Translations under genes and position numbers: made by a program
Assembly (NCBI RefSeq): GCF_002924445.1
Contig: NZ_PIGG01000068.1
Coordinates: 1 to 64,000 of the forward strand
Source of the DNA: Minwuia thermotolerans
Lineage (GTDB): Bacteria; Pseudomonadota; Alphaproteobacteria; Minwuiales; Minwuiaceae
Length of the DNA: 64,000 bases
Direction: 5' to 3'
Notes under the pieces: generated by a model
What the model was told of the DNA's origin: nothing
What the model saw: the letters and a program-made list of their open reading frames with translations, nothing else
Database searches by the model: none
Shown: one piece after another, positions 57,096 to 60,819 of the stretch
How positions within the stretch are numbered: position 1 is the stretch's first letter
Layout of the letters: the number at the start of each line of letters is the position of its first letter

Positions 57096-57995
57096 ATGAC
57101 GGAAACGATCGGTTTCATCGGCCTGGGCGCCATGGGCGGCCCTATGGCGGCGAACCTGGCGCGCGCCGGCCACAATCTTGTGGTCTTCGACGCGGACCGC
57201 TCGAAGGAAATCGAGGTCGCGGAACTGGGGGCCGCGGTGGCCGGTTCCGTCGCCGAGGTGGCCGGGAAGGCCGACATCATCGTCACCATGCTGCCGGATT
57301 CGCCGGACGTGGAGGAAGTGGCGCTGGGCGCCGCGGGGGTGCGCGCCCACGGGCGGCCCGACCAGCTTCTGATGGACATGTCGACCATCGCGCCGGCAAC
57401 GACCGACCGGCTCTGCCGGGAACTCAACGAGGCCGGCATCGGCTTCGTCGACGCACCGGTCGGCCGCCTGGTCGCCCATGCCATCGCCGGCGAGTCGCTC
57501 TTCATGGTGGGCGCTTCGGGCAACGACTTCGGCCGCGTGAAGCCTCTGCTGGAAGCGATGGGATCGACCATCCACCATTGCGGCGGTCCCGGCGCCGGCA
57601 TCCGCACCAAGCTGGTCAACAACCTGATTGCGATCGCGGTCTGCCAGATCGATGCGGAGGCGATTTCCCTGGCTCAGGCCTTCGGGCTAGACATCGCCAC
57701 CACGCTGGACGTGATCAACGGCACCACGGCCACCAACGGCCATCTGGTCAGCGCCTGGCCCAACAAGGTGCTGAAGGGCGACACCGAGCCCGGCTTCCGC
57801 ATTGCGCTGGCCCACAAGGACGTCAGCCTGGCGCTGGAGGCGGCGCGGGAGGCCGGCATCCCCATGTTCGCGGGCGCGGCGGTGCGTGAATCGCTGGCGC
57901 TGGCCAAGGGCGACGCGGCCTTCGCGGGCCGGGATTTCTCAGCATTGCTCGACCATGTCTGTTCGCTGGCCGGGCTGAAACCGCCACGGACGTGA
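57096..57995 (+). CDS. NAD(P)-dependent 3-hydroxyisobutyrate dehydrogenase-family protein
   Basis: This 299-residue beta-hydroxyacid dehydrogenase has a Rossmann domain with IGFIGLGAMGGPMAANLARAGH, the substrate motif VDAPVGRLVAHAIAGESLFMVGA and the catalytic lysine in RTKLVNNLIAIAVCQ. Family members act on 3-hydroxyisobutyrate, tartronate semialdehyde or related acids; the substrate here is not certain. Only three bases separate it from ribF, so it ends the maoC-ribF-dehydrogenase unit. The next gene starts 205 bases on, behind an operator array. Confidence 0.9.
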   Translation: MTETIGFIGLGAMGGPMAANLARAGHNLVVFDADRSKEIEVAELGAAVAGSVAEVAGKADIIVTMLPDSPDVEEVALGAAGVRAHGRPDQLLMDMSTIAPATTDRLCRELNEAGIGFVDAPVGRLVAHAIAGESLFMVGASGNDFGRVKPLLEAMGSTIHHCGGPGAGIRTKLVNNLIAIAVCQIDAEAISLAQAFGLDIATTLDVINGTTATNGHLVSAWPNKVLKGDTEPGFRIALAHKDVSLALEAAREAGIPMFAGAAVRESLALAKGDAAFAGRDFSALLDHVCSLAGLKPPRT

Positions 57996-58012
57996 ACCCG
58001 ATATCGCGGTTC

Positions 58013-58073
58013 ATGTAATATCATTACATATACAACGTAATAATATCACGCTCTCCATGTAACAGAGTTACGT
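58013..58073 (+). promoter_or_regulatory. Three evenly spaced palindromic operators upstream of the cyclase gene
   Basis: Three 17-base sites begin at 58013, 58035 and 58057, exactly 22 bp apart. Site 1 is ATGTAATATCATTACAT (a perfect inverted repeat). Site 2 is ACGTAATAATATCACGC. Site 3 is ATGTAACAGAGTTACGT. The common pattern is GTAAY-N3-RTYAC. The 22-bp phasing puts the three on one face of the helix. They lie in AT-rich DNA 127 or more bases before the cyclase ATG. The protein that binds is unknown. Confidence 0.7.
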
Positions 58074-58199
58074 GACGCAAGAAATTCCTTGCAATGTTGG
58101 CGAGTGACTTCCGATCATTCCTCCCGTGACCTTCCCAACAAGGGGGGCTGGCGCCGGCTATCGGGCGGCGTCGCAAGAAGACAAGGAGGAGACGTCACC

Positions 58200-59144
58200 A
58201 TGAAGAGACTGCTGATTGGCGCGACACTTGGGCTCGCGCTCGCCGCCGGCCCGGTGCTGGCGCAGGAATGCCAGCCGTCGAAGTACGGCGCGGACGACGA
58301 GATCGGCGCCGCCAACCTGATCACGACGGAGCGGGTGAAGGCCGCCGCGGGCCTGGTCAAACAGGGCATGACCCATCCGCTGGGCATCGTCATCGATCCC
58401 AACATGCCGGCCTTCCCGCCGCGCGGGATGATGCTGCAGGTCGTCTCGCCCGGACAACAGGGCGGCCGCGATCTGGCGCAGGACTTCGGCTGGAGCTCGA
58501 TCTACAACGACGACGTGGCCCAGCTCTGGTTCGGTATCGGCCCGCAGCTGGACGGCCTCGGCCATCTGGGCGAGGGCACCTACTACAACTGCAACTCGCC
58601 TGCGGATATCGCCTTCGTCACCGGCCTGAAGAAGCTGGGTATCCACAACGTCCCGCCGCTGGTGGGCCGTGGCGTGATCATCGACATGGCCAAGCACAAG
58701 GGCGTCGAAACGATGGCCGCCGGCGAGGCGATCACGCCGGAGGATCTCGAGGCCGCCTCCAAGGCGCAGGGCGTCACCTTCAAGGATGGCGACATCATCC
58801 TTGTGCACACCGGCTGGACCGACGCCAAGCTGGAAAGCGATCCCAAGGCCTGGGTCAGCGGTGAGCCGGGCCTGAACAACGCTGCCGCCGTCTGGCTGGC
58901 GGACAAGAACCCGGTCGCGGTCGGCGCCGACACCTGGGGCGTGGAAGCCGTGCCGCCGGCGAAGGGCGACAAGATCTTCTACGGCCATGTCACCTTCCTG
59001 AAGGAGAACGGCATCTACATCCTGGAGACCATGAACACCGGTCCGCTGGTGTCCCAGGGCGTGCAGGAGTTCATGTTCGTGCTCGGTCAGGCGCGCGTGA
59101 AGGGCGCGGTCCAGATGATCATCAACCCCGTCGCCCTGTGGTGA
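58200..59144 (+). CDS. Exported cyclase-family protein (kynurenine formamidase-like)
   Basis: This 314-residue protein has a signal peptide (MKRLLIGATLGLALAAGPVLA, before QECQPS). Its mature domain is of the cyclase family (PF04199 type), with IGPQLDGLGHLGEG replacing the usual metal motif HxGTHxDxxxH, and GVIIDMAKHKGVE further on. The altered first ligands belong to a sub-branch that keeps DG-x2-H. Likely chemistry is metal-dependent amide or lactone hydrolysis in the periplasm. AAGGAGGAG precedes the ATG. It is monocistronic, with a strong terminator after it and the triple operator before it. Confidence 0.87.
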   Translation: MKRLLIGATLGLALAAGPVLAQECQPSKYGADDEIGAANLITTERVKAAAGLVKQGMTHPLGIVIDPNMPAFPPRGMMLQVVSPGQQGGRDLAQDFGWSSIYNDDVAQLWFGIGPQLDGLGHLGEGTYYNCNSPADIAFVTGLKKLGIHNVPPLVGRGVIIDMAKHKGVETMAAGEAITPEDLEAASKAQGVTFKDGDIILVHTGWTDAKLESDPKAWVSGEPGLNNAAAVWLADKNPVAVGADTWGVEAVPPAKGDKIFYGHVTFLKENGIYILETMNTGPLVSQGVQEFMFVLGQARVKGAVQMIINPVALW

Positions 59145-59182
59145 CGGACGGCCCGATCTGACGCATCATGCCGGATGACGGG

Positions 59183-59204
59183 GAAGGGGGCTTCGGCCCC
59201 CTTC
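59183..59204 (+). terminator. Rho-independent terminator of the cyclase gene
   Basis: GAAGGGGG and CCCCCTTC pair perfectly across the stable loop CTTCGG, and TTCATT follows. It lies 38 bases after the cyclase stop and ends about 20 bases before the next start codon. Confidence 0.85.
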
Positions 59205-59226
59205 TTCATTCGGGGGAGGGGCAGAC

Positions 59227-60819
59227 ATGACGACATTCGCCGAGGCGCTGGTGGGCGCGCTGCGGGCGCGGGGGACGCGGCACCTGTTCGGGGTCCCCGG
59301 CGGCGGCTCCAGCCTGGACCTGATCGAGGCCTGCGGGAAGCTGGGCGTGCGCTTCGTGCTGACGCGGACCGAGACGGCGGCGATGCTGGCCGCGGCGGCG
59401 ACCGCGGAGATCACCGGCGCACCGGGCGCGGCGCTCGCCGGCGTCGGGCCGGGGGCGGCGAGCGCCGTCAACGGCATGGCCTACTGCGCGCTGGAGCGCG
59501 CGCCGGTGATGCTGTTCACGGACCGGGTGCCCGAGGATCCGAACCGGCCGAGCTGGCACCAGAAATTCGACCAGCCGGCGATGTTCCGCCCCGTCGCCAG
59601 GGCGGCGGCCTGGCTGACCCCGTCGACGCCGGGGGCGGAGATCGCGGCTCTGATGGACATTATGACCGCCGATCCACGGGGGCCGGTCCATGTCGACATG
59701 ACGGCGGCCGAGGCCGGCCTGCCCTTCGAAGACGCGGTGCCGGGGCCGGCGGAGCAGGATGCCGCGCCGCCGCCGGAACTCGCCCGCATCGCCGAACGCC
59801 TCGACGGATCGTGCAGGGTGGCGATGATCGTCGGCCTGCAGGCGCGCCATGCGGGCGAGCCGGTGCGCGCGCTGGCCCGGGCGCTGAACGCAGCCTGCCT
59901 GACCACCTACAAGGCCAAGGGCGTCATCGCCGACGACGACAGCCATTTCGTCGCCACTTTCACCGGCGGCACGGCGGAGGCGGCGGTGCTGAACGACGCC
60001 GACCTGATCCTGCTGGTGGGCCACGACCCGGTCGAGGCCATTCCCGGCCGCTGGATGTACGACGCGCCGGTGCTGGCGCTCTCGGCCTGGGACTGGGCCG
60101 CGGCCGGCGGGCATCCGGCGCCGGAAGTCATGGCCGTCGGCGACATCGGCCGGATGGCCGCGGAGCTTGCGCGGACGGCGCGCGGCGCGGACTGGGACGA
60201 GGCCATTGCCGGTCATCGCGCGGCCTATCGGGCGCGCGTCGCCTATCCGGCGGTCGAAGGCGTCTCCCCCGACGATGCGGTCCGCATGATCCAGGCCGCT
60301 TCCGACACTTCGGCCCGGCTGACGGTCGATGCGGGCGCGCACATGATCCCGACCCTGGCGCAGTGGATCGCCCGCGAGCCCGCAGGCGTGCTCAAGTCGA
60401 ACGGGCTGTCCACGATGGGCTACGCCCTGCCGGCGGCGATCGGCAGCGCCTGCGCCGAACCGGACCGGCCGGTGGTCGCGATCACCGGCGATGGCGGCGC
60501 GATGATGTGCCTGGGCGAACTCGCCACCGCCGCCGAACTGAACGCCGACATCACCTATGTGATCCTGAACGATTCCGCGCTGTCGCTGATCGACGTCAAG
60601 CAGCGCAATCAGCAGCGCCCGCGCTCGGGCGTCGCTTCGGAGACATTCGATTTCGCGGCGATGGCCCGCGCCTTCGGCTGGGCCGCGGCGACGGTCGACC
60701 GGCTGGACAGGCTGCAGCCGGCGCTGGATCTGCTGGCGACCTACGATCTGCCGAAGCTGATCGATATCAGGATCGACCCGTCGGGCTATGGCGGTCAGTT
60801 CGAGGCGATGCGGGGATGA
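59227..60819 (+). CDS. Acetolactate synthase-like ThDP enzyme
   Basis: This 530-residue thiamine-diphosphate enzyme has the catalytic glutamate in RTETAAMLAAAAT (the His usual before it is Thr), the loop AGVGPGAASAVNGMAYCALERAPVMLF, and the cofactor motif ITGDGGAMMCLGELATAAELNADITYVILNDSALSLIDVKQ. It is of the acetolactate synthase/benzoylformate decarboxylase group; the reaction cannot be fixed. Sequence is distinct from the first such enzyme in this window. GGGGGAGGGG precedes the ATG directly after a terminator. Confidence 0.88.
   Translation: MTTFAEALVGALRARGTRHLFGVPGGGSSLDLIEACGKLGVRFVLTRTETAAMLAAAATAEITGAPGAALAGVGPGAASAVNGMAYCALERAPVMLFTDRVPEDPNRPSWHQKFDQPAMFRPVARAAAWLTPSTPGAEIAALMDIMTADPRGPVHVDMTAAEAGLPFEDAVPGPAEQDAAPPPELARIAERLDGSCRVAMIVGLQARHAGEPVRALARALNAACLTTYKAKGVIADDDSHFVATFTGGTAEAAVLNDADLILLVGHDPVEAIPGRWMYDAPVLALSAWDWAAAGGHPAPEVMAVGDIGRMAAELARTARGADWDEAIAGHRAAYRARVAYPAVEGVSPDDAVRMIQAASDTSARLTVDAGAHMIPTLAQWIAREPAGVLKSNGLSTMGYALPAAIGSACAEPDRPVVAITGDGGAMMCLGELATAAELNADITYVILNDSALSLIDVKQRNQQRPRSGVASETFDFAAMARAFGWAAATVDRLDRLQPALDLLATYDLPKLIDIRIDPSGYGGQFEAMRG

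Follow-up and report, generated by a model that had tools for sequence, protein, structure and literature searches.

Which regulator acts on the three regularly spaced palindromes that precede the gene of a putatively exported cyclase-family hydrolase of Minwuia thermotolerans, and does it switch this gene off or on? The question arises from a window (the whole stretch of DNA analysed, 64,000 nt) in which an earlier note had placed three copies of one motif at 58013, 58035 and 58057. These positions were confirmed in the sequence, with the array ending at 58073. The array consists of three GTAAYNNNRTYAC 17-mers, set in steps of exactly 22 bp, and is flanked by a hydroxyisobutyrate-dehydrogenase-like gene (57096-57995) and by the cyclase gene (PF04199), whose ATG is located at 58200; the distance from the array to this start is 127-187 bp. 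The features of the locus are presented in Table 1.

The individual sites are less regular than had been claimed. Site 1 had been described as a perfect 17-base palindrome; its 7-bp arms are indeed perfect, but the middle triplet (ATC) is not self-complementary. All three copies are present, although one arm of site 2 (ATCAC) is imperfect. Similarly, the steps are equal, but 22 bp is slightly more than the two helical turns with which it had been equated.

Table 1. Predicted features of the array and the cyclase gene (window coordinates).
Feature	Position	Strand	Description
Predicted Zur box 1	58013..58029	.	ATGTAATATCATTACAT; core GTAATATCATTAC at 58015-58027; exact GTWAYNNNRTWAC match; rank 1
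Predicted Zur box 2	58035..58051	.	ACGTAATAATATCACGC; core at 58037-58049; one imperfect arm base; rank 2
Predicted Zur box 3	58057..58073	.	ATGTAACAGAGTTACGT; core GTAACAGAGTTAC at 58059-58071; exact GTWAYNNNRTWAC match; rank 3
Best (weak) candidate promoter	58089..58118	+	TTGCAA-18-GATCAT; 8 of 12; tentative
Putative exported cyclase-family metal hydrolase	58200..59144	+	314 aa, PF04199; N-terminal signal peptide by eye (MKRLLIGATLGLALAAGPVLA)
Stable hairpin behind cyclase gene	59180..59207	+	12-pair stem, UUCG loop; likely transcript end

The region 58000-58099 contains only 37% GC in a window of 67% GC, and AT-rich intergenic DNA may generate palindromes by chance. It is scarcely credible that the array arose in this way: all five strand-wise matches of GTAAYNNNRTYAC in the window fall within the three array sites, and none of 100 window shuffles reached this number (mean 0.10, maximum 2). 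The 22-bp repetition is exact, and the changes in the array of the sister genome (described below) are confined to the spacers. The 17-base pattern RYGTAAYNNNRTTACRY, with up to 3 mismatches, gave 16 matches in the window, no excess over the 14.72 expected, but with 0 or 1 mismatch it detected the three sites of the array only. Two adjacent sites at a 22-bp step (up to 2 mismatches) were found in two of the nine genomes searched, i.e. the genome of the window and its sister (G003), and in both solely at the place of the array; the reversed control of this search matched once, in the own genome. Folding of the array as RNA revealed no structure beyond that of shuffled sequences (z -0.95).

The earlier note regarded numerous random copies of the motif in the genome as an argument against an operator. 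Copies are in fact few: besides the array, the 4.9-Mb genome contains three further GTAAYNNNRTYAC matches, each of them single, and the 13-bp pattern GTWAYNNNRTWAC occurs exactly at six places in total. The location of these six is informative: three are at znuA, one is at znuC-znuB-zur and the remaining two are array sites 1 and 3. In the sister genome, these six places recur, together with one more. The numbers of exact copies do not exceed those obtained with the reversed pattern (6 vs 9 in the own genome, 7 vs 11 in the sister), so that the argument depends on the positions of the copies and not on their number. A one-mismatch search with a pattern narrower than GTWAYNNNRTWAC yielded 11 (own) and 8 (sister) forward matches, compared with 5 and 7 in the reversed controls. 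Besides the array, the two genomes have in common two overlapping sites on contig C40, a third site approximately 8.6 kb away and one site on contig C26. The C40 sites directly precede znuA and znuC-znuB; at znuA, boxes overlap at a 5-bp offset and are placed immediately before the start codon. The best NCBIfam matches of the znuA, znuC and znuB products are zinc transporter models (ZnuB above the cut-off, ZnuA and ZnuC just below it). The gene that follows znuB encodes a 135-aa Fur-family protein, for which the best NCBIfam match is PRK11639, a model of Zur (96.8 bits, where the cut-off is 167 and thus not reached), and the best solved structures are 7dh7 (a Fur-family regulator) and 4mtd (a zinc uptake regulation protein); its name, zur, is supported by its position behind znuB.

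We also inspected eight other genomic matches (ORF context and third-position G+C content): four lie in coding-like frames, one (C26) precedes an ORF and three are elsewhere. The C26 site is a one-mismatch sequence, GCGTAACGAAGTTGCGC, kept in both genomes (G000:C26:117369-117385 and G003:C1:1399953-1399969) and located 186 bp before the ORF. Behind znuA (L054:6027-6824, on the own contig C40) is a gene whose 266-aa product begins like a signal peptide and contains a His-rich stretch; it matched no NCBIfam or Pfam family and may be another protein that handles zinc.

The array has the frame of known Zur boxes. The boxes of Paracoccus denitrificans listed in Table 7 of PMC5387054, where several of the promoters were tested by EMSA, share its 13-bp frame (GTWAY-N3-RTWAC), as does the search motif given for Caulobacter Zur (GTTA-N5-TAAC; PMC4176598). 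Sites 1 and 3 fit exactly, and site 2 fits with one arm mismatch. In scans with Zur matrices built without the array, from (i) five P. denitrificans boxes alone, (ii) four own znu boxes alone and (iii) eleven boxes together, the sites of the array ranked 1, 2 and 3 among 63,988 window positions (the table in PMC5387054 lists six sites, of which the weak norC site was omitted). Thus the motif, which the earlier note could attribute to no specific regulator, matches the Zur boxes of the same genome and of Paracoccus, and the three palindromes are in all likelihood Zur boxes, as predicted from their sequence.

The TetR-, GntR- or MarR-type regulator originally envisaged is replaced by Zur, a zinc sensor of the Fur family. 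A search for the motif near genes of those types had been recommended; the motif does occur elsewhere in the genome, but the GTWAYNNNRTWAC places outside the array are at the znu genes and zur, and with the discovery of the znu sites nothing spoke for a TetR/GntR/MarR operator any longer. The observation that no regulator gene adjoins the array stands, zur being located on another contig, behind znuC-znuB. It is very unlikely that the array serves such a regulator, or another member of the Fur family, and resembles Zur boxes by coincidence. The genome does contain two further Fur-family genes besides zur, and the arms of sites 1 and 3 are cleaner than those of some znu boxes; however, matrices that had not included the array placed its three sites first, the own genome has no exact match outside the znu genes and the array, and zur and the array are jointly absent from genus mates.

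The intergenic region of the sister differs from that of the window at ten bases (one extra base at the edge of the alignment is an artefact of the stretch chosen). Three of the differing positions (58020, 58022 and 58044) belong to the array, and all three are in N3 spacers: site 1 has two spacer changes, site 2 has one and site 3 is unchanged, while the arms and the 22-bp steps are kept. Since the spacers make up 9 of the 57 bases of 58015-58071, random placement would produce this result with a probability of about 0.003 (hand calculation). Within the genus, zur was found in the own genome, the sister, G001 and G002, and was absent from the other five members (G004-G008), one of which (G007) is only 89% complete. 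In all four zur-less members with readable DNA upstream of the cyclase gene, the array was absent too, i.e. both are missing together. G002 carries the cyclase gene but has no box upstream of it, although two Zur-like proteins were detected there (in one of them, the matching region is interrupted by a stop); in G001, zur is present, but no cyclase match was obtained at E 1e-40.

A wider set of cyclase orthologues comprised 74 upstream loci, in two sets of 45 and 29; a few of these loci may come from one species present in two collections. L019 (a fragment lacking upstream DNA) and L138 (the same locus as L031) were left out before counting, and the upstream stretches of L030 (248 bases) and L100 (287 bases) were shorter. 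An exact box was present at four loci (window, sister, L031 and L139), compared with 0.1 loci on average in shuffled upstream sets; the 70 loci without a box include that of G002 and five with a one-mismatch site only (L024, L028, L032, L110 and L148). With the window and the sister set aside, the count is 2 of 72; of 300 shuffle sets, 3 attained this value. The expectation that spacing and arms would be conserved in relatives is borne out in the sister, the sole close relative possessing zur, but not at these 70 loci; exact boxes occur at the distant orthologous cyclase genes L031 and L139, but the triple array is limited, among the 74 loci, to the window species and its sister.

L031 has GTAATGTTATCACGTAAC, in which an exact box and a box with one mismatch overlap, shifted by 5 bp as at znuA. 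The L139 cyclase is 82% identical to that of L031, and its box, GTTATAACATAAC, lies within the first codons of the likely coding region (about +8 to +20, with the start codon chosen by us). The GTTATAACATAAC 13-mer is also present in the L031 genome, between znuA and a zur-like frame of 110 aa, which had no Pfam match and was named by its appearance alone. DUF1826 genes are usual targets of Zur. The L031 genome contains 15 exact sites (37 in the reversed control), including two overlapping sites at cobW, one each at the znuA, DUF1826 and ZrgA genes and one at the cyclase gene, while the nine exact sites of the L139 genome (control, 36) include those at the cyclase gene and at the start of a cobW gene. 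A plasmid search yielded 12 records, all below 60% identity.

Zur is usually a repressor. Under zinc sufficiency, zinc-loaded Zur dimers would sit next to one another on the three sites, facing almost the same side of the DNA, and the cyclase gene would be repressed; when zinc is scarce, Zur would leave the array and the exported PF04199 hydrolase would be made. Within a zinc-starvation response, such an enzyme might function with little zinc or help to supply it. Cooperative binding of Zur, suggested by the 22-bp phasing, is plausible. A standard scan detected no promoter upstream of the cyclase gene and, as no clear promoter was found, repression by zinc-loaded Zur is a mode that we infer, and the likeliest one. 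A sigma-54 activator array was considered and rejected: GG-N10-GC occurs at 58145 and 58156, neither of them judged to be in a good -24/-12 context.

Zur might instead act as an activator, with zinc-loaded dimers upstream of the promoter assisting RNA polymerase, so that the cyclase would be made when zinc is plentiful, e.g. because the enzyme needs it. We regard this as rather improbable. Among the top three candidate promoters, one is 15 bp downstream of the array, but this call is weak and two other pairs have the same score, including the pair at 58015-58044, within the array itself. The distance of the array from the cyclase start corresponds to positions at which Zur activates some genes elsewhere, while the znuA boxes abut the start; those boxes, and the L139 box inside the coding region, suit repression, though they belong to other promoters. 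The Streptomyces zitB gene is activated through a Zur box just upstream of the -35 region, from which Zur oligomers extend further upstream, and the same article mentions activation proposed for an alcohol dehydrogenase gene of Neisseria (PMC5472717). In Caulobacter, itself an alphaproteobacterium, an operon for export is cited as another case of activation (PMC9827704), and mutation of the box of this operon is reported to lower expression (PMC4176598). Taking both sides together, we consider it fairly probable that the array is composed of Zur boxes at which zinc-loaded Zur represses the cyclase gene, with induction by zinc starvation.

The match of the cyclase to the PF04199 profile is clear (85.5 bits vs a gathering score of 23.1), and no NCBIfam model matched at E 0.001. 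Its AlphaFold model is of modest confidence (pLDDT 68.9; the residues scoring under 50 include 65-115 and 119-125), and the assignment of metal ligands therefore rests on the alignment. The closest structures are 5ibz, followed by a Ruegeria cyclase, isatin hydrolases and KynB; 5ibz, isatin hydrolase and KynB share the PF04199 family and fold with the cyclase. In KynB, zinc is bound by His50, His54, Asp56, His161 and Glu173, and His60 is the proposed base (PMC4243253). The metal motif of the cyclase reads GIGPQLDGLGH, which differs from the isatin hydrolase motif HxG[T/A]HxDxPxH. Judged by motif and spacing, KynB His50 and His54 correspond to Gly112 and Gln116; as both first-site histidines are replaced, a KynB-type binuclear zinc site appears to be lacking. 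Asp118, His122, His263 and Glu276 are invariant in all 12 aligned sequences, and we infer from the sequence that the enzyme has a one-metal site. The paralogues in the same genome (four genes, five placements) carry Q-x-D-x-x-x-H or H-x-D-x-x-x-H, and thus the copy predicted to be controlled by Zur is not alone in having lost the first-site histidine.

With -24.1 kcal/mol (z -3.98), the hairpin behind the gene is very stable, but a clear run of T is missing and the terminator scan did not score it, which tempers the strong terminator claimed earlier. Behind it, starting 82 bases past the cyclase stop, is a gene for a thiamine-diphosphate enzyme of the acetolactate-synthase type (59227-60819). 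The central proposal of the earlier note, a dedicated multi-site operator before an exported cyclase, is supported.

Compared with known systems, the array (three non-overlapping boxes in 22-bp steps, before an enzyme gene) differs from the zur/znuA promoter of Paracoccus, for which two boxes are described. Promoters with two Zur boxes are known (PMC6103462, PMC9827704), and in open-licence papers all matches to phrases for two or more boxes read "two Zur boxes". Streptomyces zitB resembles the present locus in that Zur would cover an extended stretch upstream of the promoter, but there a single box is followed upstream by DNA in which no feature is recognised, and its product is a zinc exporter (PMC5472717). 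Searches of open-licence papers listed none that links the PF04199 family (kynurenine formamidase, "cyclase family protein", or cyclase with zinc starvation and periplasm) to Zur, and none of the matches listed for Zur plus isatin hydrolase contained the latter term. The word "cyclase" is absent from the main texts of the Paracoccus (PMC5387054) and Caulobacter (PMC4176598) papers and of a review.

A precedent for a hydrolase of zinc starvation is ShyB. We know of no kinship between it and PF04199 enzymes. ShyB is Zur-regulated and is reported to function in low zinc, and it differs from the cyclase in being a cell-wall endopeptidase (PMC6381278).

The regulator of the locus would be an ordinary one, whereas the operator is unusual and the target seems to be new; the cyclase gene would be a new member of the Zur regulon, and the locus is not a new kind of system. 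On sequence grounds, the exported PF04199 hydrolase very probably belongs to an apparently very small set of Zur genes, the exact-motif regulon comprising zinc uptake, zur itself and the cyclase only. A bolder reading, which we offer as a tentative possibility, is that the zinc response has an arm not reported before, in which several alphaproteobacterial lineages (more than one) have brought an exported one-metal PF04199 hydrolase under Zur control, with the three phased dimers forming a cooperative switch sharper than that at zinc transporter genes. Zinc status would then be the physiological setting of an uncharacterised exported enzyme, and the array would offer a natural three-site phased operator for studying the cooperation of Zur dimers.
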